64,000 nt of DNA from Candidatus Sumerlaea chitinivorans (GTDB lineage: Bacteria > Sumerlaeota > Sumerlaeia > Sumerlaeales > Sumerlaeaceae): positions 2,616,572-2,680,571 of the forward strand of contig CP030759.1 of NCBI GenBank assembly GCA_003290465.1. Reading direction: 5' to 3'. This document shows, in pieces, positions 4,689-64,000 of the stretch (the first letter of the stretch is position 1; every line of letters starts with the position of its first letter). The notes beneath the pieces were generated by a model. That model was not told the DNA's origin. It saw nothing but the letters and a program-made list of their open reading frames with translations, and ran no database searches. The translations under genes and the position numbers were made by a program.

Positions 4689-5024
4689 CGCCGACCACAC
4701 TCGAGCGCACCTCTGGTGCCTTGTTTGGTTGCGAGTTTTCGTCGCGACCTCAAGGGAGTGTTGGCGCTTTCTTCGCTGTGGCTTATGTTTTTTTTCGTGT
4801 GCCGGTAGCCAGCGCGATTCTCTTCACCTTTGCGGGATCGAGTCGAGCAGCATTTGCACCCCGAAACAGTTGTCGCGGATGGCCCTTCCCCACACGAATC
4901 TCCGCCGAAAAGGAACCGATTGCGCTCACACCGATCGAGTTGGATCGCGCTGCCCGAATTCGGCAAGGAAAGGCCCACGCGTCCGGCATCCGGCAAGAGG
5001 CGGGTTTGAGCCTCTCCCCTATCG
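4689..5024. other. Intergenic between convergent genes
   Basis: About 336 bp between trigger factor and the convergent FAD oxidoreductase. No credible gene. A T-rich run (about 4787-4795) could serve in termination of tig transcription, but I do not see a strong hairpin before it. Confidence 0.35.
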
Positions 5025-49823: not shown

Positions 49824-49857
49824 GTTGGGAGGCCGCAAGTCACAATGACCTCCCAAC
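49824..49857. repeat. Inverted repeat abutting the distal end of the I-C array
   Basis: GTTGGGAGG (49824-49832) pairs with CCTCCCAAC (49849-49857), ending exactly where the first repeat begins. A further CCTCCCA lies at 49802. No U-tract follows on the minus strand. It could stop or process the array transcript. Confidence 0.5.
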
Positions 49858-50156
49858 GTTTCAATCCACGCGCCCGCGCGGGGCGCGACGAGGCAATGCC
49901 TTTGTCGTCGCGCGAGACGGGCGTGTTTCAATCCACGCGCCCGCGCGGGGCGCGACTACTTGCGTTTGCAGCCGACATCGGATCCACGTAGTTTCAATCC
50001 ACGCGCCCGCGCGGGGCGCGACGCGCCGGATGAGTCGGCTCTTGTCCGTATTCCTCAAAGTTTCAATCCACGCGCCCGCGCGGGGCGCGACTAGACACAA
50101 AAATACCATCATCTACGGCCCCAAGTTTCAATCCACGCGCCCGCGCGGGGCGCGAC
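49858..50156 (-). CRISPR. Type I-C CRISPR array, 5 repeats, 4 spacers
   Basis: Five identical 32-bp repeats at 49858, 49925, 49991, 50060 and 50125, with spacers of 35, 34, 37 and 33 bp. Read on the minus strand the repeat starts GTCGCGCCCC and ends GCGTGGATTGAAAC, the usual I-C type with its GTGGATTGAAAC handle. The stem is 7 bp (CGCGCCC/GGGCGCG). Transcription should be leftward, away from cas2. The array is short and repeats are perfect, which suits either recent activity or low acquisition. Confidence 0.98.
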
Positions 50157-50404
50157 CGGGTGCTTCTAACCCCAGTATTATCAGTTGCGATTTGCGCATT
50201 TTGCGCAGACCCCGTCAAGAGAAATCGTCCTATTCCCTGTTTTTGGTATGAGAACACCAGAGAATACTGATAAACCGTTACTTACACTTTGCGCAGACCC
50301 CATTTTTGGATCGCCACCCATAAATCACTGATTCCACAATTCTTATGGCACAAAATCCGCCCCAACCGCTTCCGCACACTTGGGGTCGGCGCAAAAGGCA
50401 GGGG
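50157..50404 (-). promoter_or_regulatory. Leader of the type I-C array
   Basis: 248 bp between the cas2 stop and the first repeat. It holds two direct copies of TTTGCGCAGACCCC (plus strand 50200-50213 and 50288-50301), with a third, weaker relative (GGGGTCGGCGCAAAA, inverted) near 50384. Such repeats inside leaders are candidates for integration-factor or Cas1-Cas2 docking sites. No gene seen. Confidence 0.65.
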
Positions 50405-50695
50405 TCAGATCACAAGTGGGCCTTCTGGATCGTACGCTGGCTTGGCGCCCACGTGCTCAACTCTTCCGCGCCACGATTTGCCGAGAAAGTAAAAACGCAG
50501 GCTGTCGGTCGCGGGGTCAATGATCGAACACAGGTCGTGCCGCAGTTGGGCCCACTGGGCGGGCTCCAGCAGGCATTCGAATACCGACTTTTGCACGCGT
50601 TGCCCGTGATTGAGGCACGCTTTCGCCACTTGGCGTAGCCGGCGCCGACCTTCGGGGGTTTCCGTGTTCACATCGTAGGTAATGAGCACCATCAT
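50405..50695 (-). CDS. cas2: Type I-C Cas2
   Basis: 96 residues. Ferredoxin-like fold starting MMVLITYDVNTETPEGRRRL with the conserved Asp8 in the first strand. Ends with KPAYDPEGPLVI. Forms the integration complex with Cas1. Last gene of the I-C operon, 3 nt after cas1; GGAGG at 6 nt before ATG. Confidence 0.96.
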   Translation of the reverse strand: MMVLITYDVNTETPEGRRRLRQVAKACLNHGQRVQKSVFECLLEPAQWAQLRHDLCSIIDPATDSLRFYFLGKSWRGRVEHVGAKPAYDPEGPLVI

Positions 50696-50698
50696 GGT

Positions 50699-51730
50699 TC
50701 ACCTCCAGATAAAAGCCGGGTAGCTCTCGAGATCGCCGCGCAGAAACCGAGCCAACAGGAGGCCTTGGACGTGTGGAACAAGTCCGAGCGGGATCTTTTC
50801 GTTCAGAAAGGGATGGGTGAGTTCTTCGCGTTTTCGTTCCTGGTAGGCGACAAGGATCGTGCGGCGCGTCTCGTCCGTAAGATAAACCGCGCCGTTTTCT
50901 GTTGTCACAAAGCCCTCGGGCAGGACTTGCCGCCGATTGATCAATGTCAGAGCAAGGCGATCTGCGAGCACAGGGCGGAGTTCCTCCATGAGGTCGAGGG
51001 CGAGGCTTGGTCGGCCGGGCCGAATGCGGTGCAGAAAGCCCACCGCTGGATCCAATCCCACGCCGTCGAGGGCGGAGGCGTAGTCGTGGGCCAGCAGGGC
51101 ATAGAGGAAGCTCAGGAGGGCGTTGAGTGGATCGCGGGGCGGCCGGCGGTTGCGCTGCCGCATAAAGAACGTCGATGGGTTCTCCAGCACGAGCGCATTC
51201 ATACTTTCAAAGTAGTGCGTTGCGGCTTCACCCTCGAAACCGCGCAGTTCCTCGACCGCATGGTTTGGATGAATCTGCTCAATGATCTGTCGGAGTTTGG
51301 CTTCTGCGGCTGCGAGCTGAGCATGGCGAGAAGCGTAAGCGTCCATGACAAGGGCCCGCTGCAGGACGCGCCGGCAATTCAAGAGCTTGGCCAGTACAAT
51401 GGGATAAACAATCGCTTGGGCGGTCGCTGGCTCATCGTAAGCGCGGTACTGGGCGCGCCGCAGGAGCACATTGCCGGTGGTGGGACCTACGGCCCGCGCC
51501 AGGAGCCGCCCGTGTTCGCTGAAGAAGCTGACGCCCACGCGATGCTCCGCGCACAAATGGAGCGCCGGAGGCGACATCATCACACGCCCAAAACATGCAA
51601 TGGATTGCAAAGTGTGCGCTGGCACCTGGAGGCGCACCTCACCGTCCAAAGAGACCACAAGCGTGGTACCTTCGCGGTTGATGTAGCTGCCTTGAGTCGT
51701 GACGTAAAGGGTGTTCAAGAGTCGTTTCAT
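50699..51730 (-). CDS. cas1: Type I-C Cas1 integrase
   Basis: 343 residues from ATG 51730 (MKRLLNTLYVTTQGSYINRE). The N-terminal beta domain includes SIACFGRVMMSPPALHLCAE. The C-terminal helical domain carries the catalytic residues, visible in GLDPAVGFLHRIRPGRPSLA (His) and LDLMEELRPVLADRLAL. It integrates new spacers. An internal 147-bp stretch (51453-51599) recurs at 58542-58688. The frame is open further upstream, overlapping cas4, but the family start is as given. Confidence 0.96.
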   Translation of the reverse strand: MKRLLNTLYVTTQGSYINREGTTLVVSLDGEVRLQVPAHTLQSIACFGRVMMSPPALHLCAEHRVGVSFFSEHGRLLARAVGPTTGNVLLRRAQYRAYDEPATAQAIVYPIVLAKLLNCRRVLQRALVMDAYASRHAQLAAAEAKLRQIIEQIHPNHAVEELRGFEGEAATHYFESMNALVLENPSTFFMRQRNRRPPRDPLNALLSFLYALLAHDYASALDGVGLDPAVGFLHRIRPGRPSLALDLMEELRPVLADRLALTLINRRQVLPEGFVTTENGAVYLTDETRRTILVAYQERKREELTHPFLNEKIPLGLVPHVQGLLLARFLRGDLESYPAFIWR

Positions 51731-51734
51731 GCGT

Positions 51735-52430
51735 CTATAGATGCTCCGAAAACGGTGGGTTGCGGAGCGCCTCGCGTCGCATCTCCTCGAGGTAAGTTTT
51801 CGAACGCATGCGCAACGGGTCCAACTGAGGCATACAGAGTTCGACGAGCGAGCATTGATGGCATTTGGACGTGTAGACGGGAGCGGGCGTCGTTGCGGAT
51901 TCAAGGAGTTGTCGGACGTTTGCGATACACTCGATGGTGGCGCGGCGCAGGTCTTCGTGAAACATAACAACCTGCCGACGCCGTGGCCGGGCATAATAGA
52001 TGCAACCTTGCGTAATCTCACAGCTCAGCATTTCTTCGAGGCACAAGGCCTGCGCGCAAAGTTGGATGTGATCCGAGAGGTCGGGTTTGTAAGTGCCGTG
52101 TTTATACTCTACTGGATGGACCACCCAGAAACCTTCGCAATTCGATAGGCTTTTACCCATGCTCGGTGACGGTGCTGGAATGAACTCCACTACATCCGCC
52201 TTACCCACCAACCCGTAGCGCTCGGAACGCAGAGGCAGGGCCCGCGCAATGCGGACCCCACCACGTTCTTCTGTTGCCCCAGAATCCGCTTTTTCGTGAA
52301 GTAGCCGCCCTTCAACAGTAAGAAGATTTTCTTCCCACTGTTGCTCAACGTACATCAAGGCGCACTGCCGTGGACAAAAAATATAGTGCTGAAGTGAAGC
52401 AATGGGGACAAGCTCTTCGTCCCAACTCAT
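51735..52430 (-). CDS. cas4: Cas4 exonuclease
   Basis: 231 residues. Four iron-sulphur cysteines: FCPRQC near the N-terminus (Cys19, Cys23) and KCHQCSLVELC near the C-terminus. RecB-like nuclease residues lie in HPVEYKHGTYKPDLSDHIQL. Helps choose PAM-proximal prespacers for Cas1-Cas2. GGAGGG before ATG; 4 nt from cas1. Confidence 0.95.
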   Translation of the reverse strand: MSWDEELVPIASLQHYIFCPRQCALMYVEQQWEENLLTVEGRLLHEKADSGATEERGGVRIARALPLRSERYGLVGKADVVEFIPAPSPSMGKSLSNCEGFWVVHPVEYKHGTYKPDLSDHIQLCAQALCLEEMLSCEITQGCIYYARPRRRQVVMFHEDLRRATIECIANVRQLLESATTPAPVYTSKCHQCSLVELCMPQLDPLRMRSKTYLEEMRREALRNPPFSEHL

Positions 52431-52455
52431 GCTTTGCCCTCCGTTCGGGCCTACG

Positions 52456-53358
52456 TCAGATAAGCTCGTGGAGCTTCACGCCTTGAGGCAGTCTCTCTTT
52501 CGCAATGTGTACCTCATAATCCTCGAAAGAGCGGGCAGGCATCTGCGGCTCCTTCGGCTTGACTTGGATCAGTGAAAACAATTCGTGCGCACGAGCTTCT
52601 CCGAGAGGCGACGCGTGTTCAAAGACCAAGAGCTTTCGTGTGGCCATTTCGCCTCGTGCTGCGGAGCGATCGAGTTCAAACATATTGGCCAACGCGTCGA
52701 GCAGAAGCAATAAATCCTCCCGATTAAATCCTGTCTGTTGTGCGAGGAACGGGTTGACGAACCCATGGGCGACGTACAAAGCATAGGGGACAATCTCTTT
52801 TCGCCCCATCGTGCGGTTGCCACCCTCTTGACTTTGAGATTCGCGCTCGGTGGTGACGGCCATACGGGTAATTGCCTGCTCCAAGGAGACGATGGGCGCC
52901 ACGCTTCGCGCGAACGCAAACTGAACCGGACCGCGTACTTGGCCGCAATTGATGCCCGTGGACATGACGGCCCCAAACATCCGGATATCGAAGAACGTCT
53001 GACACATCCACGCGCGTGCTTTGTCAACGGCCTGTGATTCTTTGGTTTTTGGGTCAAGTCCCAGTGCAACGAAGGCGCGTTCGTGCTGCTTATTGAGAAT
53101 GGCCCCTTCCTTTACGTAGATGTCGTAACCTTGTTGTGGTTGGCCTTGGGCTCCACCTTTGACCAACCAAATGTAGTTGCGAATCTTCCGTTTTAGGCAG
53201 ACGTCGCTGACGAGCCCGTGACCCGTTTCCGGGTCCACGCGGGGAGCATTGCCAGCGTCTGGGTCACCATTCGGGTTTCCATCGCGGACGTCAAAAAGCA
53301 GAGCGATATCAAACCGGTTTTGAACCGGATCACCGATCGCTTCGAGATTGAGCTTCAT
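52456..53358 (-). CDS. cas7: Type I-C Cas7 (Csd2)
   Basis: 300 residues. Starts with the Csd2 pattern [20 protein letters not shown] and continues with [34 protein letters not shown] and the C-terminal [20 protein letters not shown]. Forms the helical backbone of the Cascade complex on crRNA. Start ATG follows GGAGG. Confidence 0.96.
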
Positions 53359-53376
53359 GCTTAATATCCTCCCGAT

Positions 53377-55308
53377 TTACGAATTTGAAGTTAGTAGATC
53401 ATGGTTTTCAAGCTCGCCGGAGACAGGGCTCTGTGAGCGAGCCCAAAAATAGATGGCTGGGGCATCGCTATGCTGTTGCTCCCACTTCCGACGCTCTTCC
53501 TCGGGTAACCATAGCCATTTGCGCATTTGGTGATAGCCGAGCACAAAGAGCCCCTGTTGTTCGAGATCGAGGTATGGCGGGAAATTGTTATTTGCCGGAT
53601 AAGCCCGACCGGGAGCCGTAAAGGCACTTGCAAGTTCGTCAATTAGTTTTTCTAAACGCAAGGCTAAGCCACGGTTGCCTTCTTGCCGTGCCTTCGAGGC
53701 ATGATGACGGGCATTTTTCAAGAGCCGCACAAATACGGTCCGTGGTGTCGCGCTTGCCCCCGAGAAGTACCGGTCCACAAGCGTTGCATTGATGTCCCCT
53801 TGAGCAAGTTGCTGAAGGCGTTCAAGCACGGCTAAGAGAGCTCCAAGAACATAGCCCGGCTGATGGTTGTTTGGATCGAACATCGGTTTCACCTCCTTCC
53901 ATGTGCCCCCAGAGTTTCCACGGTTCTTGCGATTCAACGTTGCCTTAATAAGTGCAGCACGCGTGTCGTTCAGCCAACGATGCTGGTCATCATCCAGCCC
54001 ACGCCTGTAGCGCTCGGCGGCTCGCACGAGAACAGCCAAGGGGTAAGAGGACCCGGTGATCGCCGCGCGAATGAGTGCTGTGGCCAGAGGATTCGGAATA
54101 CCCTCGCCGCTCTGTTCGGATGGATGGGCGAGGGCGTTCAGCAGGTTTCCAAGGCTCAGATACGTTAGCTTCCTATCCTCTAACCCATGGAGTTGAAGAT
54201 CCTCAAAATGCTGTCGAATGTTCTCAATGAGCGCATCCAAGGCGGTTTCAATCCAATCTCGGAGAATGATCCGCCCTTGCGCGCCGCTGAGAACCATTAG
54301 ATAGAAGTCTTGTGCGTCCAACTGAATAGAAGGTTTGCGGCCCAACCAAATAGACCGCAAAAACTGACCAAGATCCTGCTCGGTGGCTTGGGGAAGCCCT
54401 TCCTCATTGACGCTTAAAAGGTTCCCAAGCAGGCCTTCAAACACCGACGGCTTCGCACTCCAGTAGCAGAGTTTGGTATCGGCCGAGATTCGTAAGTTGA
54501 GACGGGGAAGTCTTCGTTCAGGGTTCGCCGGATTTTTGGGATCGTCGCTCACCAGACGTTCAAGCGCACGCGTACAAGCAACTGCGGCTTCTTCACTAAT
54601 GGGACAGTTTTCATTTCTCTCCAGATAGTACGATTCTGCAGCATTGAAGTTGAAAGACACAAGGGTCGCTCCGCTCGGTTGGGCTCCGGGCACACCCTTT
54701 ACTTTCGGAAAATTCGATGGCGAATTTATCTTGGTACCGGTCACAAGGCATTCAAAGCCTGCATCTGCGGGCGGCTGTGAATGCTGACTTGCTAATTGTT
54801 TCTTCCACCACTCAAGAATAGCTGGCCGCTGGCAAATCAGACACTCATCGGTGTTCAACTTGAAGGCTATGAGTTCGCCATCGTAATCCGGTGGGAGTTT
54901 TCTACGGGCTTCCTCAAAGGCGGAGTTGTTTGCATAAAACCTTTCGACGGCAAGCGCTCCGGTATCGTTGGTAGCCTGAGCAACCTTTCTGACTCGTTCC
55001 TTAAACAGGCTATGCCGCTTTTGGGCTCGCTCTTCTTTGGGAGGTTCAGCAATGCCAAAAAGATATTCGGCATTGTCGTAAAACAGAAATGGGTAATCCT
55101 GGGAGGTTCGTTGCTCGTCTCGAGGAACGCTGAAGGATTTGCCTTTCGCTTTCTTGCTTTTTCCTGTGACTTCATGTGTTGGCAAGTAGCCAACGAAATT
55201 TCCATCCGCCGTAATTTCTAAGAGCCAAGGTATCTCTTTTCGTTCAAGATGTGGATCAGCGAGGAGCTCGTCACGCTTGGCTAACTCATAGAGAGCTTGG
55301 AGGATCAT
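53377..55308 (-). CDS. cas8c: Type I-C Cas8c (Csd1)
   Basis: 643 residues from ATG 55308 (GGAAGGAG at 8 nt), overlapping the cas5 stop by 4 bp. Typical Csd1 start MILQALYELAKRDELLADPH. The conserved LVSFNFNAAESYYLERNENC is visible, as are LVSDDPKNPANPERRLPRLN and a C-terminal LFVLGYHQMRKWLWLPEEER. Large Cascade subunit that recognises the PAM and, in I-C, gives rise to the small subunit by internal initiation in other systems. Confidence 0.93.
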   Translation of the reverse strand: MILQALYELAKRDELLADPHLERKEIPWLLEITADGNFVGYLPTHEVTGKSKKAKGKSFSVPRDEQRTSQDYPFLFYDNAEYLFGIAEPPKEERAQKRHSLFKERVRKVAQATNDTGALAVERFYANNSAFEEARRKLPPDYDGELIAFKLNTDECLICQRPAILEWWKKQLASQHSQPPADAGFECLVTGTKINSPSNFPKVKGVPGAQPSGATLVSFNFNAAESYYLERNENCPISEEAAVACTRALERLVSDDPKNPANPERRLPRLNLRISADTKLCYWSAKPSVFEGLLGNLLSVNEEGLPQATEQDLGQFLRSIWLGRKPSIQLDAQDFYLMVLSGAQGRIILRDWIETALDALIENIRQHFEDLQLHGLEDRKLTYLSLGNLLNALAHPSEQSGEGIPNPLATALIRAAITGSSYPLAVLVRAAERYRRGLDDDQHRWLNDTRAALIKATLNRKNRGNSGGTWKEVKPMFDPNNHQPGYVLGALLAVLERLQQLAQGDINATLVDRYFSGASATPRTVFVRLLKNARHHASKARQEGNRGLALRLEKLIDELASAFTAPGRAYPANNNFPPYLDLEQQGLFVLGYHQMRKWLWLPEEERRKWEQQHSDAPAIYFWARSQSPVSGELENHDLLTSNS

Positions 55309-55991
55309 GAGTAAATCTCCTTCCCAGCCGCGAATTTCTCGAGCCACGGGGTGCACAAAGTGCCCTGATTGAGGTGTGCGGAGAAAAACATCGGTCTAAA
55401 ACACTTCTTGGAGGCGCCGTTATACTCGATCTCGTAAAGCATGCGGCCTAAATCTTTGGTCACAGGAATGGGCTGGAACTTTTCGGGTGCAGGCTCCACA
55501 TGAGCTACAAACTCGCGACAACCAAAATAGGGTTGGTGAAAGCGTTGCCCTTTGGCAAGCCGACGCTGGAACATCTCAACAAATTTCGTAACGTTGTCCT
55601 CGGACCCTGCTTGGTCGGTAAGCTCAAACTGCGCTTCGACGACATAGTCCACGTCACGAAGTGCCACTGTATTGCGCTGGACACGCGAGTCCTCGATAAG
55701 AAGCGCAGGAGGTGGCCCGCCGTTAGCGATCACTGAGGCCGGCGGTGCCACAGCTTTCTTGTCCACCTCATTGCGGCGGAGGGTAATAAAAGCAATCGGG
55801 TTGAGCACGTGAATTCGAACCACGTACCACCGAATTGCGGGTTTCCAAAGAATTGCCTCAAAAAGGCCACGGGCTGCAGTCGGTGTCATGACCGGATAAG
55901 AGACTCGCTCGACCTTGAGCTCCGGACGAGTAAAGCACGCAAAAGGCCCATGAGCTCGAAGCGATAAAACAGGGCTAACAGTTCGTGGCAT
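55305..55991 (-). CDS. cas5c: Type I-C Cas5 (Cas5d), crRNA-processing
   Basis: 228 residues. Cas5d features: SLRAHGPFACFTRPELKVER, VMTPTAARGLFEAILWKPAI, RNTVALRDVDYVVEAQFELT, then FHQPYFGCREFVAHVEPA. In I-C systems this protein processes pre-crRNA, since Cas6 is absent. GGAGG before ATG 55991. Confidence 0.95.
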   Translation of the reverse strand: MPRTVSPVLSLRAHGPFACFTRPELKVERVSYPVMTPTAARGLFEAILWKPAIRWYVVRIHVLNPIAFITLRRNEVDKKAVAPPASVIANGGPPPALLIEDSRVQRNTVALRDVDYVVEAQFELTDQAGSEDNVTKFVEMFQRRLAKGQRFHQPYFGCREFVAHVEPAPEKFQPIPVTKDLGRMLYEIEYNGASKKCFRPMFFSAHLNQGTLCTPWLEKFAAGKEIYS

Positions 55992-56027
55992 CGACGCTTT
56001 CCTCCCTATGGAATTTGCGTAACCCCC

Positions 56028-58337
56028 TTACAGAACTAACTTCTCTGGTGAAATCTCACCTCCCTCGGTCCAATTCAAGCCCAAAAAGTCCGAGTAACAC
56101 GCCGCATAGAGGGGAACAACGTACCACGGTCCCCTTATATCTTCAAAAATTCCCCTGACTGCTCCAACACGCCACATCTCTTGGAAAGTTTTCGAATATA
56201 TCTGAACTACGTATCGCTGTAGCTGGCGCATTATCTGCTTAAATGTAGGGGTACCGACAGAAGTTTTTGCTTGGTCGATAAGACTCAGAGACTCCCCATA
56301 GGGGACGACAACCGCGTATAAGTAGTCGTCCTCGATCAGTCGGAATTCCTTAGCGATGGTGTCAAACTTTAGCTGGCTGGTTAGTGTGGCGATACTCTTA
56401 GAGTCATTATCGCTCAGATAGTAGAGACTTGCAAAAAAACGCTCGACGGAATTGCAATCAAATGGATCCAACGATTGCTCCCCGGTTGAGCGAATCAGAT
56501 TCATGGTGACCTCGGTTGCTTTCCGAAGTACGCCCGGCGGAGGCTGGGAAGGGGGTTGAAAAATAATGACGCGACCAGTTTCCAATAGTCTCTCCCGGTT
56601 GCAGCGTCCTGCAGCTTGGACAACACTGTCCAAGCCGGCAAGAGCTCGATAAACCACTGGGAAGTCCAAATCTACTCCTGCTTCAACAAGTTGCGTTGAG
56701 ACAACGCGACAGGGTAAGGAGGTCGTAGAAAGCCTCTCGCGAATTCTCTGCAAAACGTCGAACCGATGAGCCGGACACATGAGAGCAGAGAGGTGGAAAA
56801 CGGAATCGCGTTCTTTGTCGTCGATAAAGGTTAGAAGCGCCTTCGCAAGTGCTTTTGCGTCTTCTCGTTTGGAAACCACTACAAGGACTCTATCGAGAAG
56901 TGCGATTTCTTGGGCAAGTTCTTCCCACGTCGAATAATACGCTTCTGAGTTTTCACGAGTAACGCGCCATTCCACCTTCACTTTCTGAACGGTCCTATAA
57001 GTTTCGGGGGGCGTGGAGATTAAGGGAACGATGTTTCCCAAGATGTTTCTTGTTTCAAACGCTGGGGGGGTCGCGGTCGAAAGCACCACCGTGCACCCAA
57101 AGTCGGTGACCAGTGCATTTAGTACATAAAGACACGGGTCAAGCAGGGCAACCGGTAACGTCTGAACCTCGTCGAGGATAATTACCGAGCGGGCAATGTT
57201 ATGGAGCTTTCGCAAAGGGGTGGGATGATTCGAAAAAAGTGTTTCGAAAAACTGGACGGTAGTGGTTACAATCACGGGTGCATCCCAGTTTTCGATCGCC
57301 AGTTCATAACGGGATGCGTAATCCTCAGGCTGATCACAAGTGTCAGGGATACGCCTGAAATCAAAGTTTGAATGATGTTCCAGAACGTTTTCTCGACCTA
57401 AGGCGTTTGCGTACTCAGCGGCATTTTGCTCAATGATGCTCGTGTAGGGAATTACGACAATGACACGATCTAAATCGTGGTGGGCGGCATGACCCAACGC
57501 GAAAACCATTGAAGAGAGGGTTTTTCCTAAGCCCGTGGGTAGAGTTAGCGAATAGGTGCCTTGTGGTTTGTCAGCAGCCTCTCGGCACTGCTCAAATGCG
57601 ACATTGCGCAAACGCATCAAGCTATCTGAAACACTGGGAGTTTCCCCACGCTGCTTGCTCGCCACATAGCTTATAAGCCGGGTTTGGAAAGCTCGGAAAT
57701 TAGGTTTCCCCCTACCCTGAAGCTGCGCAGGAATGCCATATTCGAAATATGCACTATCAAGGCGGTCGGCGTCTACCAGAGCAGAAAGAAGAAATCGCAG
57801 GAACAGGGCCACGCGAAACCAGCATTGAACCTCCTTCTGGCAGCCCGTCCGAGGCGGAGCATCCAGAAGCGAACGCAGCCAGTCAGGTAGCTTTGCGACG
57901 TGCTCTCCCACGGAACAGTCGCGCTGATCCGAAGGTAGTTCTTTGGCTACCGTTGGCCACAAGTTTAGATATTCCCTCCATTTCTCCCTAAACGTCTCGA
58001 GGTCGGGTAAACCAGTATGGTGCGAAGCAACAATCAGCGCTAGTAGCTGTAGCAGCTGAGCAGAAACGTTGTCGTTGGCGTTCGAGGCGCGTGTTAGTAG
58101 CCAAGCGCTCCCTACCCACGCATGGGGAGCGTGGTGCGTCTTTCCGCGGAGTCGCTGCTGGAACTTCTCCTGATATTTTCCGAGGTCGTGAGTCCACCCA
58201 AGCAAATGGCCTAACGAGCCGCATCCGACTTTTTCGGCCAATTGTTTGCAGAGGGCGGCAACGTTTGCTAAATGCTCTTGCAACAATTGGTAGCGCTCGC
58301 CCTCCGGCGTTTGTGTTTTTCTCGCGTAATAATCCAT
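56028..58337 (-). CDS. cas3: Type I-C Cas3 helicase-nuclease
   Basis: 769 residues from ATG 58337. N-terminal HD nuclease (His22; His50-Asp51 in WTHDLGKYQEKF), then an SF2 helicase: TLPTGLGKTLSSMVFALG (Walker A), DRVIVVIPYTSIIEQNAAEY, ILDEVQTLP (DEVQ in place of DEAH), VLSTATPP and VQAAGRCNRE. Recruited by Cascade to unwind and degrade the target. First gene of the I-C operon. The frame extends to TTG 58397. Confidence 0.95.
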   Translation of the reverse strand: MDYYARKTQTPEGERYQLLQEHLANVAALCKQLAEKVGCGSLGHLLGWTHDLGKYQEKFQQRLRGKTHHAPHAWVGSAWLLTRASNANDNVSAQLLQLLALIVASHHTGLPDLETFREKWREYLNLWPTVAKELPSDQRDCSVGEHVAKLPDWLRSLLDAPPRTGCQKEVQCWFRVALFLRFLLSALVDADRLDSAYFEYGIPAQLQGRGKPNFRAFQTRLISYVASKQRGETPSVSDSLMRLRNVAFEQCREAADKPQGTYSLTLPTGLGKTLSSMVFALGHAAHHDLDRVIVVIPYTSIIEQNAAEYANALGRENVLEHHSNFDFRRIPDTCDQPEDYASRYELAIENWDAPVIVTTTVQFFETLFSNHPTPLRKLHNIARSVIILDEVQTLPVALLDPCLYVLNALVTDFGCTVVLSTATPPAFETRNILGNIVPLISTPPETYRTVQKVKVEWRVTRENSEAYYSTWEELAQEIALLDRVLVVVSKREDAKALAKALLTFIDDKERDSVFHLSALMCPAHRFDVLQRIRERLSTTSLPCRVVSTQLVEAGVDLDFPVVYRALAGLDSVVQAAGRCNRERLLETGRVIIFQPPSQPPPGVLRKATEVTMNLIRSTGEQSLDPFDCNSVERFFASLYYLSDNDSKSIATLTSQLKFDTIAKEFRLIEDDYLYAVVVPYGESLSLIDQAKTSVGTPTFKQIMRQLQRYVVQIYSKTFQEMWRVGAVRGIFEDIRGPWYVVPLYAACYSDFLGLNWTEGGEISPEKLVL

Positions 58338-58443
58338 CTGTGTCAGCACTCCCCATCTCTGGATTACCGTGGCACTGTGACAAAATAGGTCACGCAATTT
58401 GACCTGAGCAATTTTTTCAACTCTCAGGGCAGGGGTAAATGTC

Positions 58444-58539
58444 TCACCACAGCGGGCCGGCGAGGGGGTCGGGGCGGTCGAGGAAGGTGCGGGCCCACGC
58501 TTCGAACATCAGCAGGGCCCAGAGTCGGTGCGCGTGGTT
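58444..58539 (-). pseudogene. Fragment resembling the C-terminus of asparagine synthetase
   Basis: 32 codons ending in TGA read NHAHRLWALLMFEAWARTFL and a short tail. HRLWALLMFELW-type ends are typical of glutamine-hydrolysing asparagine synthetases (AsnB, including glycan-cluster forms). No other part of such a gene is present. The fragment is 2 nt from the cas1 fragment, so two unrelated scraps abut here. Confidence 0.45.
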
Positions 58540-58541
58540 TT

Positions 58542-58688
58542 GCGCGCCGCAGGAGCACATTGCCGGTGGTGGGACCTACGGCCCGCGCCAGGAGCCGCCC
58601 GTGTTCGCTGAAGAAGCTCACGCCCACGCGATGCTCCGCGCACAAGTGGAGCGCCGGCGGCGACATCATCACACGCCCAAAACATGCA
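58542..58688 (-). pseudogene. 147-bp duplicated fragment of the I-C cas1 gene
   Basis: Matches 51453-51599 with about 3 mismatches and no gaps. It encodes MMSPPALHLCAEHRVGVSFF and following residues of the Cas1 N-terminal domain, without start or end. The near-identity shows a recent copy or exchange. The matching ends are abrupt on both sides. Confidence 0.9.
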
Positions 58689-58715: not shown

Positions 58716-58820
58716 CATAAAAAGGTTGCCCGTCCGGCGCTATAAGGCGCCAGACGGGCAGAGCCTACGGACCTGAGTCCTTGTTATGAAAAGACTCGGG
58801 AAATGTTTGGTTACGCGCGT
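58716..58820 (-). ncRNA. tracrRNA of the type II-C system
   Basis: The anti-repeat spans 58815-58781 on the minus strand: CGTAACCAAAC, then ATTTCCC-GAG, ending CATAAC. It matches the plus-strand array repeat (CGTAACCAAACTTTCCCCGAG...CCACAAC) with small bulges, so it can pair with a crRNA made from the minus strand of the array. A GGAC-TCAG-GTCC stem-loop follows, then a strong hairpin with U-tract. The 5' end is not determined. It is divergent from cas9. Confidence 0.85.
58719..58759 (-). terminator. Intrinsic terminator of the tracrRNA
   Basis: On the minus strand GCCCGTCTGGCGC pairs with GCGCCGGACGGGC (one wobble pair) around a 6-nt loop and is followed by AACCTTTTT. Confidence 0.9.
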
Positions 58821-59044
58821 ATTCCCGCCAAACTTCTGCATCACATTTCAAGCGAAAAATGAAATCTATATGCAAGATTTCCGTACCCCCTGAGGCACAG
58901 AAAGGGGGATGACGAGAACTTCTCGCCAACAGGCTATTTTGAGCGGCAGCTAAACGCTTATGGAGCATTGACACTGCAACTCAAGGCCTACTAACAAAAG
59001 CCATCAAAACATTCCACAAAAGTTGGGGGAATAGGAGATTAACC

Positions 59045-62000: not shown

Positions 62001-62182
62001 ATCGGGTGCAAAAGTTCTCTGTCTCAGACGGCCGGCCGGACATCATGTTCCGCGAACACGGCTCAGTCCGGGCTGATGACATGAGTCACTGCGAACGGGT
62101 CACGGATCTTTCGCCACGAAAGCTATTACTTGAGAAGATCACGGTTAGTGTTCTCGGGGAGGTGGAGGTAGCCCATGACTGA
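59045..62182 (+). CDS. cas9: Type II-C Cas9 nuclease
   Basis: 1045 residues, a compact II-C size. RuvC-I: GLDVGSNSIGW with Asp25. Arg-rich bridge helix about 72-95 (RRVARGMRRQHDRRSRRKRR). RuvC-II: RIVVELARE with Glu515. HNH: VEVEHIWPYDRCLDNS with His595, and FRDWNQRKGN with Asn618. RuvC-III: HRHHAIDAAVIA with His732 and Asp735. All catalytic residues are present, so it should be an active RNA-guided double-strand nuclease using the adjacent tracrRNA. AGGAG at 7 nt before ATG; a TTGACA lies at 58968. Overlaps cas1 by 8 bp. Confidence 0.98.
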   Translation: METNSLFRSQSTNSQTTSGWALGLDVGSNSIGWMLVREQPVDGEVNVIGGVRVFPAGTATEKATEKSKTEERRVARGMRRQHDRRSRRKRRLTYVLREIGLLPPQPVPIEPILQAIDPWEVRARGLDEPLKPEEFARALIHLNQRRGYRSNRRADAKKSESASIREKAVKLREEIHEHGCRTLGEYLYKHVPSIRERRRGRFFLREMVEEEFKQLWNRQAQEDPQHFTDAAKEKVKEAIFYQRPFLKRERLEARVGRCEFEPSEKRCRIGHRLAQRFRILQEVNNLRVILGYTERALTPEERKVLIEKLESSKEVTLKRIPKLLGLPEDCEINLARGNRTKLLGNSAEAEFRKLLGDRWQTMSEEEKDRLCEAVLEEEDDVLERRAREEFGFTEEQVKGLLEISLRDRFGRVSLKAIRRLLPFLEQGLSLTEAAKEAGYGDRHKVDRIYELLPFPPGTRLTTNPEREQELVRQGLLLPNENEITNPVVRKALFEVRKVVNAIIRKYGKPSRIVVELARETRGSIEERNEYNRRIREREKENEQNKDELRKLGLEQPTAEDVRKYRLWKECMGICPYSGRRITVEQLFSGEVEVEHIWPYDRCLDNSFANLTLCFRDWNQRKGNRTPYEAFHQEPFWQEILERVSRFEGEYRWQKLRRFRYEGDLQLDDFVRRQLQDTQYIARVVRRYLELLGVPVNCTRGQVTAALRHLWGLDSILARDGNSAKNRDDHRHHAIDAAVIAMTTAKHLHNLSRREHFRRNRMNFPEPWPGFRVAVKHAVDSIVVSHAPTRRVRGPLHEETNYGLAVQEKQQYVYRKPLEELFTSEVKSIRDPKIRRMVTERLDQVCPNRREKGRDSLKKLKALENPILLPNSNGEPIPVRRVRLTTTIGNAIGLPRQAPVRYVKPGENHHIEIFERMDKKGRVRREVVAVTLFEAAQRLRNRQPVVSRVHPQYPDAKFLMSLCKNDMVRITWLEDVKNAKAGETRIYRVQKFSVSDGRPDIMFREHGSVRADDMSHCERVTDLSPRKLLLEKITVSVLGEVEVAHD

Positions 62183-63131
62183 CCGGACCATCGAAATCTC
62201 AGGCTTCGACGCTCATCTGACCGCTCGCCTCAAGCAAATTCAGATCCGACACGAGGGTGAGATCGTGACTACCATTCCAGCCGAGGACATTGGTATCCTC
62301 GTGGTGGACACCCCGAATTCAAACTTTACGAACGAAACGCTCGTTTCGATTGTGCGGGGCGGTGGGCTTGTGATCCTGTGCGGTTCGGACCACTTGCCCG
62401 CCGCCTACGTCGTTCCTGTTGTGGGCAATTCGCTTCAAGTGCAACGTCAGCAACAGCAACTTGCCCTGAGCGATCGCCGCCGCAACCGCCTCTGGAGCCA
62501 CATCGTCCGCGCCAAAATCCAGAATCAAGCGCTCGCGGTGGAGGATGCGACTGTGCGTCAGCGACTCGAGATTTTGGCTGAGCGGGTGGGTTATGCCGAC
62601 CGCACGAACTGCGAAGCTTCCGCTGCCCGCATCTATTGGCCGACAATGGTCGGGAATCCGAACTTCCGACGCGAACGCGATGGGCCGCCACCCAACTTGT
62701 TCCTAAATTACGGGTATACCGTCCTGCGCGCCGCCGTGGCTCGCGCCCTTTGCGCCGCGGGCCTCAACTGTGCATTCGGGATTCACCACTCGAACCGAAA
62801 CGCAGGGTTCTGCCTTGCCGATGATCTCATGGAACCGTTACGCCCGTGGATTGACCTTGCGGCCGTCGAACTCCACCGCAAGGGACTCACAGAGCTCGAC
62901 AAGACAACCAAAGCCCGCCTCCTTGGGGTGCTCTATCAGCCAGCGTGGTTCGGGGAAGAACGTTCCACGGTGGGCAATGCAATTCCACGGATGGTGGGCA
63001 CACTTGTGCGCTACTACGAGCAAGCCACGGAGGAGGTCACCTTCCCACGATTACCGGAAAAGGAGGACCGACACATGGGGTCAAGCGCGAGCGGCTGCGT
63101 GCCCGACGCGAACGAGAACGACGGGCCCTAA
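62175..63131 (+). CDS. cas1: Type II Cas1 integrase
   Basis: 318 residues. N-terminal domain with GILVVDTPNSNFTNETLVSI and GGGLVILCGSDHLPAAYVVP. The catalytic helical domain has LNYGYTVLRAAVARALCAAG, FGIHHSNRNAGFCLADDLME (His, Asp) and LMEPLRPWIDLAAVELHRKG. It differs strongly from the I-C Cas1 in this window and matches type II families. Its last about 20 residues (GSSASGCVPDANENDGP) overlap the cas2 frame and look non-conserved. Confidence 0.96.
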   Translation: MTDRTIEISGFDAHLTARLKQIQIRHEGEIVTTIPAEDIGILVVDTPNSNFTNETLVSIVRGGGLVILCGSDHLPAAYVVPVVGNSLQVQRQQQQLALSDRRRNRLWSHIVRAKIQNQALAVEDATVRQRLEILAERVGYADRTNCEASAARIYWPTMVGNPNFRRERDGPPPNLFLNYGYTVLRAAVARALCAAGLNCAFGIHHSNRNAGFCLADDLMEPLRPWIDLAAVELHRKGLTELDKTTKARLLGVLYQPAWFGEERSTVGNAIPRMVGTLVRYYEQATEEVTFPRLPEKEDRHMGSSASGCVPDANENDGP

Positions 63132-63157
63132 TCCAGCGTTGGAGTGAGTGGCGGACC

Positions 63158-63463
63158 GTGTGGACCTTTGTGATGTTTGACCTGCCCGTCGCAACACCTG
63201 AACAGCGTCACGACTATGCGGTATTTCGCAAGCGCTTGCTCGAGCTTGGGTTTACGAAGCTCCAATACTCGGTTTATGCCCGCTTTCTTCCGAGCGAAGA
63301 GAAGGCGGAAGCGGTGGTGCGGCGGGTACGCGAAATTCTACCGCCAGAGGGGCAGGTCCGCATTCTCGAAATCACGGGTAAGCAATTCGAAAAGATGCAC
63401 GTTTTCTACGGAACTCGACAGCGACCGCCCGAAAACCCACCTCAACAGCTCGAATTATTCTGA
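63158..63463 (+). CDS. cas2: Type II Cas2, start uncertain
   Basis: About 102 residues from GTG 63158: first strand WTFVMFDLPV (metal Asp), FRKRLLELGFTKLQYSVYAR and ILEITGKQFEKMHVFYG. Type II Cas2 normally has about 20 residues before this; the same frame indeed reads RERLRARRERERRALIQRWS upstream, but it has no ATG, GTG or TTG between 62945 and 63158. A well-placed GGAGG-ATG at 63075 is one base out of frame with cas2 and in frame with cas1. See findings. Confidence 0.85.
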   Translation: MWTFVMFDLPVATPEQRHDYAVFRKRLLELGFTKLQYSVYARFLPSEEKAEAVVRRVREILPPEGQVRILEITGKQFEKMHVFYGTRQRPPENPPQQLELF

Positions 63464-63483: not shown

Positions 63484-63510
63484 AAAAAAATGAGCGGCCT
63501 GCGGCCGCTC
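63484..63510 (-). terminator. Intrinsic terminator for leftward transcription of the II-C array
   Basis: GAGCGGCC-TGC-GGCCGCTC is a perfect 8-bp hairpin (63492-63510). On the minus strand it is followed by A and then TTTTTTT. On the plus strand there is no U-tract. It sits one base from the first array repeat, between cas2 and the array. Confidence 0.88.
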
Positions 63511-63511
63511 T

Positions 63512-64000
63512 ATCGTAACCAAACTTTCCCCGAGGTCAATCCACAACTGGGTTGATGCCATATATTTGGACAGAAACATCGTAACCAAACTTTCCCCGAG
63601 GTCAATCCACAACCGTCAGGTTCAATGACGAGCTCACGGTAGAATCGTAACCAAACTTTCCCCGAGGTCAATCCACAACGGGATGGTAGTGTTCTTAACT
63701 GGTGTTCTCATCGTAACCAAACTTTCCCCGAGGTCAATCCACAACGGTAGTGTTAGGATACGCTGGCGGGGAGAAATCGTAACCAAACTTTCCCCGAGGT
63801 CAATCCACAACCCGCGTGCAACACTTCTCTCAACCTCGCTCATCGTAACCAAACTTTCCCCGAGGTCAATCCACAACCCTCTGCTCCTGCGGTTGTCATC
63901 CCGCGCTATCGTAACCAAACTTTCCCCGAGGTCAATCCACAACCTGGGAGATTCCTTGAGCGCGAATCGATCAATCGTAACCAAACTTTCCCCGAGGTCA
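63512..64000 (-). CRISPR. Type II-C CRISPR array, at least 8 repeats, runs off right edge
   Basis: 36-bp repeats begin at 63512, 63578, 63644, 63710, 63776, 63842, 63908 and 63974 (the last cut at the window end). All seven visible spacers are 30 bp. In crRNA sense (minus strand) the repeat starts GTTGTGGATTGACC and ends TTTGGTTACGAT. Strand choice rests on the tracrRNA anti-repeat and the terminator at the left edge; the leader and newest spacers should therefore lie beyond the right edge. The 3' end TACGAT could act as a -10 element, as known for Neisseria II-C repeats. Confidence 0.98.

Follow-up and report, generated by a model that had tools for sequence, protein, structure and literature searches.

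Does the DNA opposite cas9 in Candidatus Sumerlaea chitinivorans encode the tracrRNA of its CRISPR-Cas9 locus, and is the anti-repeat found there unusually full, as a preliminary description made from the letters of the sequence proposed? The window considered here is the whole stretch of DNA that was analysed, 64,000 nucleotides in length, which corresponds to positions 2616572–2680571 of a complete-looking 3.29-Mb single-contig genome, and all coordinates are those of the window unless stated otherwise. The minus-strand element at about 58719–58817 is almost certainly the tracrRNA of a type II-C CRISPR-Cas9 locus, judged from the features set out below; the supposed fullness of its anti-repeat did not survive comparison with related loci.

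The cas9 locus and the element opposite it

The locus is ordered tracrRNA, cas9, cas1, cas2 and an array of 60 repeats (Table 1). Its three cas genes form an operon without csn2 or cas4, which assigns the locus to type II-C; the cas4 at 51735–52430 belongs to a type I-C operon. Cas9 has intact RuvC and HNH residues, with D25, E515, H595, N618, H729 and D735 invariant in an alignment of eight sequences. The protein had been called compact at 1045 residues, and while the length is correct and the gene intact, this size is ordinary for the clade. RNase III is also encoded in the genome.

Table 1. Features of the type II-C locus, in window coordinates
Feature	Position	Strand	Remarks
tracrRNA gene	58719..58817	−	5′ end inferred near 58817-58820; 3′ end is the U-tract
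AGG/CCU clamp, terminator hairpin and U-tract	58719..58767	−	stem 58727-58760, U-tract 58719-58723
Nexus stem-loop GGAC-UCAG-GUCC, 4 bp	58769..58780	−	predicted for the crRNA-bound state
Anti-repeat	58783..58815	−	spans 34/36 repeat positions with 30 pairs; internal loop at positions 9-10 of the repeat
TTGAAA, possible −35 of the tracrRNA promoter	58846..58851, approximate	−	near the position seen in relatives; weak
cas9, 1045 aa	59045..62182	+	RuvC and HNH residues intact
cas1, type II	62175..63131	+	
cas2, type II	62945..63463	+	homologous part from about residue 63 of the ORF
Array terminator hairpin at the cas2 end	63492..63510 (L009 164-182)	−	for the minus-strand pre-crRNA
CRISPR array	63512..64000 in the window, on to window-equivalent 67437	−	60 repeats in all

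The minus strand from 58820 to 58719 reads ACGCGCGUAACCAAACAUUUCCCGAGUCUUUUCAUAACAAGGACUCAGGUCCGUAGGCUCUGCCCGUCUGGCGCCUUAUAGCGCCGGACGGGCAACCUUUUU. It contains, outside the array, an anti-repeat complementary to the CRISPR repeat of the same locus and, after it, a nexus hairpin and a terminator, all in the place where the preliminary description had put a tracrRNA. Alignment of the anti-repeat to its own repeat gives 30 pairs, 27 of them Watson–Crick, with one 1-nt gap, so that nearly the whole 36-nt repeat is indeed covered, and the GGAC/GTCC stem-loop noted earlier is the 4-bp nexus. The terminator had been given as a 13-bp hairpin with a U-tract; the stem has 13 bp, or 14 with a closing U–A pair, and the tract has five U, but an AGG/CCU clamp with a small internal loop stands between the two, and the U-tract does not directly follow the stem. 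This terminator is present on the minus strand only.

The divergent position upstream of cas9 was also described correctly, with 227 nt between the 5′ edge of the anti-repeat and the cas9 ATG, a gap which exceeds that of nearly all relatives. The layout itself is normal; in a published survey 69.8% of tracrRNAs were reverse and 79.2% upstream of the effector, making divergent upstream the commonest arrangement (PMC10278012). An Rfam search of the tracrRNA returned nothing at gathering score, in a database which covers tracrRNAs sparsely (PMC9067536).

The alignment score of the anti-repeat is 45.5, compared to a best of 33.9 when the intergenic region was dinucleotide-shuffled 150 times, and the repeat:anti-repeat duplex is predicted at −42.7 kcal/mol, compared to a minimum of −27.6 among 1000 shuffled anti-repeats. 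Elsewhere in the window the seed pattern occurs solely in the CRISPR array itself, and a second degenerate repeat was looked for without success, the best remaining match scoring 31.1 and lying inside cas3. The promoter scan upstream of the window tracrRNA reached at best 8 of 12 consensus bases, a value which 24% of shuffles also reach, so the tracrRNA promoter is not recognisable above chance; no convincing −10 lies beside the TTGAAA candidate.

The neighbourhood of the locus has features of its own. To its left, the type I-C operon occupies 49854–58397 on the minus strand, with cas3, cas5c and cas8c, continuing with ORFs that read as cas7, cas4 and cas1, and with its own five-repeat array at 49854–50162 (repeat GTTTCAATCCACGCGCCCGCGCGGGGCGCGAC). 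A direct repeat of 105 bp brackets the II-C cassette, at 58446–58550 and at L009 4204–4308 (window-equivalent 67532–67636), the two copies being identical at 104 of 105 positions. To the right of the array it forms the 3′ end of an intact asparagine-synthase-like gene, while the copy made from it lies between cas3 and the tracrRNA; this arrangement suggests insertion of the cassette next to that gene. Directly after the 105-bp copy, a part of the I-C cas1 (51453–51599) recurs at 58542–58688 over 147 bp with 98% identity. Both copied pieces meet at a common 9-nt GCGCGCCGC, and the junction looks like the scar of template switching.

The CRISPR array and the strand of its crRNAs

In the same orientation as the tracrRNA strand quoted above, the repeat of the array beside cas2 is GTTGTGGATTGACCTCGGGGAAAGTTTGGTTACGAT, and all but three of the 60 repeats are identical. 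A promoter-like TTGACC-N16-TACGAT, which finishes exactly at the 3′ end of the repeat, is present on the minus strand in 59 of the 60, compared to 3.1 sites expected in the whole region; transcription from these putative promoters would run toward the cas genes. Between cas2 and the first repeat lies the array terminator, an 8-bp stem followed by ATTTTTTT. The oldest repeat (window-equivalent 67402–67437, in L009) has kept the promoter part but has CCGTTC in place of GTTGTG, a change which hits the six bases pairing with the tracrRNA next to the guide and leaves a weaker predicted duplex over the first 22 nt, at −15.0 kcal/mol instead of −24.0. The strand of the crRNAs is set by the 5′ GTT of the repeat, the in-repeat promoters and the array terminator.

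In type II-C systems each repeat has its own promoter (PMC3656092), new spacers enter at the last repeat, and the first, ‘extra’ repeat is mutated (PMC12080349). At the level of sequence, the putative promoters, terminator and degenerate oldest repeat of this array match that known biology. Spacers of the whole array had no match among phages and plasmids, nor did three spacers near cas2 among viral contigs, and no PAM can therefore be inferred.

The anti-repeat among related loci

Considering the question of fullness, cas9 loci were gathered from genome contigs (80) and viral contigs (9), together with those of the phylum itself; arrays were located and a single alignment procedure was then applied to all loci. 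An array and an estimated cas9 start were available for 65 loci, and 48 of these have a divergent anti-repeat scoring at least 40. The anti-repeat spans at least 34 repeat positions in 38 of these 48 loci and 36 in 27 of them, with a median of 36 out of 36 compared to 34 in the window; paired positions have a median of 32.5 compared to 30, and 40 of the 47 other loci pair at least as many. By pairing score, the window anti-repeat ranks 42nd of 48. The comparison with related tracrRNAs thus places it at or slightly below typical pairing, contrary to the claim that it is unusually full.

In the relatives, promoters resembling TTGACA-N16..18-TATAAT finish a few bases ahead of the anti-repeat, with at least 9 of 12 consensus bases in 27 of 50 loci, compared to 6% of shuffles. 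In those 27 loci the primary transcript should begin with the complete anti-repeat. Full anti-repeats are the rule in this clade, with transcription expected from the first base where the promoter is clear, and the window tracrRNA is an ordinary II-C tracrRNA without unusual fullness.

The evidence for selection on pairing lies in the contrast with swapped partners and not in the absolute figure; standard pairs occupy 93.2% of repeat:anti-repeat positions in 43 loci, a value biased upward because the anti-repeats were found by complementarity, compared to 64.4% with partners swapped (at most 69.3% over 500 shuffles). Cells that changed on both sides number 445 in the same 43 loci, compared to at most 180 after swapping. 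This covariation between anti-repeat and repeat among the relatives is seen in either half of the anti-repeat, the distal one (repeat 21–36) included. Pairing in the distal half is 98.6%, a figure that is too high for the very end, since a local alignment stops when it meets a mismatch. In the usual II-C model, this distal half is lost in processing. The anti-repeat of a locus is the best partner of its own repeat in 43 of the 48 loci, the window’s included.

These data also bear on other readings of the element. It could be a silent relic, i.e. an inverted copy of the repeat, old and now untranscribed, or part of a recently arrived II-C cassette that is unexpressed in this host, as the unrecognisable promoter, the low rank in pairing and the recent-looking duplications flanking the cassette would allow. 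This is very improbable, however, as the nexus, terminator and clamp are intact, the anti-repeat fits the repeat of its own genome best, the cas genes are intact and the repeats of the array are nearly uniform.

Slightly less probable still is a regulatory function, where a long tracrRNA or scaRNA-like RNA would steer Cas9 to its own promoter and not act as a plain crRNA partner. The tracr-L of S. pyogenes is a natural single guide of this type, with a 5′ extension carrying a guide that matches the cas promoter. The long gap ahead of cas9 would leave room for such a form, but the intergenic DNA contains no target that repeats a 10-mer from the upstream region, so an extension with a guide to the cas promoter like that of tracr-L was not found, and the failure to find a second degenerate repeat also speaks against it.

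Hardly credible at all is the idea that the functional transcript is on the plus strand, the DNA being a leader or promoter element of cas9 and not a tracrRNA gene: although the reverse strand of the anti-repeat keeps a repeat-like −10 in 32 of 49 loci, about 28–31 nt before the cas9 start in several (L083, L092, L093, L098 and L100 among them), the −10 of the window is TACGCG and far from cas9, the sole terminator is on the minus strand, and the crRNA strand is fixed independently by the array. With this −10 only 28–30 nt from the cas9 start in those named loci, the cas9 promoter must there be located inside the tracrRNA gene or past it, and the promoter of the tracrRNA extends into cas9. The reverse strand of the anti-repeat was separately considered as a cas9 promoter and rejected, as complementarity to the repeat already forces the −10 bases and the −35 bases are lost in most loci.

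Read as a tracrRNA, the element has close parallels. Type II-C tracrRNAs from Campylobacter jejuni (PMC3656092) and from metagenomic sets (PMC10278012) are alike in having an anti-repeat, nexus and terminator near cas9, and their systems in having promoter-bearing repeats, spacer gain at the last repeat and a mutated extra repeat; no qualitative difference was found, the pairing in the window being typical or slightly below for its own clade. The two-hairpin tracrRNAs of Cas9 clade V (SaCas9-like, PMC7606464) also have a nexus-like hairpin and then one larger fold, but they belong to another Cas9 clade, and the likeness is one of shape which does not imply common descent.

Nearer to the window, the Sumerlaeota loci L012, L013 and L014 have the same locus order, an anti-repeat reaching to the end of the repeat, and the same fused stem-loop/terminator with AGG/CCU clamp. 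In the window tracrRNA, the terminator itself appears to have developed out of the second stem-loop that relatives have (GCAGGCAACGCUC...). The closest relatives, L012 (about 620–770) and L013 (about 4874–4990), have an extra hairpin in the nexus whereas that of the window is plain, and the window has the longer gap to cas9.

The guide pair and the predicted fold of the free tracrRNA

As the preliminary description had anticipated, a model of the guide RNA pair can be written directly from the sequence. By analogy with established type II biology, the tracrRNA would pair with the repeat part of the minus-strand pre-crRNAs, RNase III would trim this duplex, and Cas9 would take the trimmed duplex together with the nexus and cut DNA guided by the spacer. 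Judging from the sequence, transcription of pre-crRNAs would be driven by the promoter inside each repeat, begin about 6–7 nt into the following spacer and stop at the terminator next to cas2.

The predicted minimum-energy fold of the free window tracrRNA is a different one, in which CCCGAGUCUU of the anti-repeat pairs with AAGGACUCAGG of the nexus region, the nexus is absent and the distal anti-repeat is single-stranded; the segment AAGGACUC lies within this self-fold. In silico, addition of 22 nt of the crRNA repeat abolishes the self-fold at 35 of the 43 loci, and in the window an addition of this type restores the nexus. It is likely, on this modelling, that the anti-repeat core of the free tracrRNA is paired with the nexus region and that the crRNA repeat opens the fold and lets the nexus form.

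The predicted self-fold, which hides the anti-repeat core, is not confined to the window, where taken alone its signal is modest (z about −1.4 to −1.5), but co-varies across the clade. At least six self-fold pairs are predicted in 39 of 43 related tracrRNAs, compared to a mean of 23.4 (maximum 29) for chimeras, i.e. tracrRNAs given the anti-repeat core of another locus. The energy of a core with its own nexus is 2.6 kcal/mol better than with swapped ones after row and column correction, which none of 5000 permutations equalled; in a thinned set of 12 dissimilar loci the observed value was reached by three of 5000. Comparison with GC-matched partners gives p = 1.6e-6, and the self-fold is largely missing in loci with shortened anti-repeats (p = 0.003, uncorrected for relatedness), these p-values serving as guides only because the test was devised after the fold of the window had been seen and the loci are related.

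These predictions allow the tentative suggestion, which we consider possible though rather less than probable, that full-length II-C tracrRNAs, that of the window included, act as a folding switch. The distal anti-repeat would be a landing site, and nothing but a true repeat could open the core by strand exchange and allow the nexus to form, so that Cas9 would be offered only tracrRNA that already holds a crRNA. Literature searches yielded no description of such a switch, which is weak evidence of novelty.

For a sparsely sampled phylum, the locus provides a ready guide-RNA model for its Cas9. The switch, if true, would explain why near-perfect complementarity is kept in the distal anti-repeat despite its presumed removal in processing, and the self-fold, if real, would bear on how the loading of Cas9 with empty tracrRNA or with repeat-like cellular RNAs is avoided.
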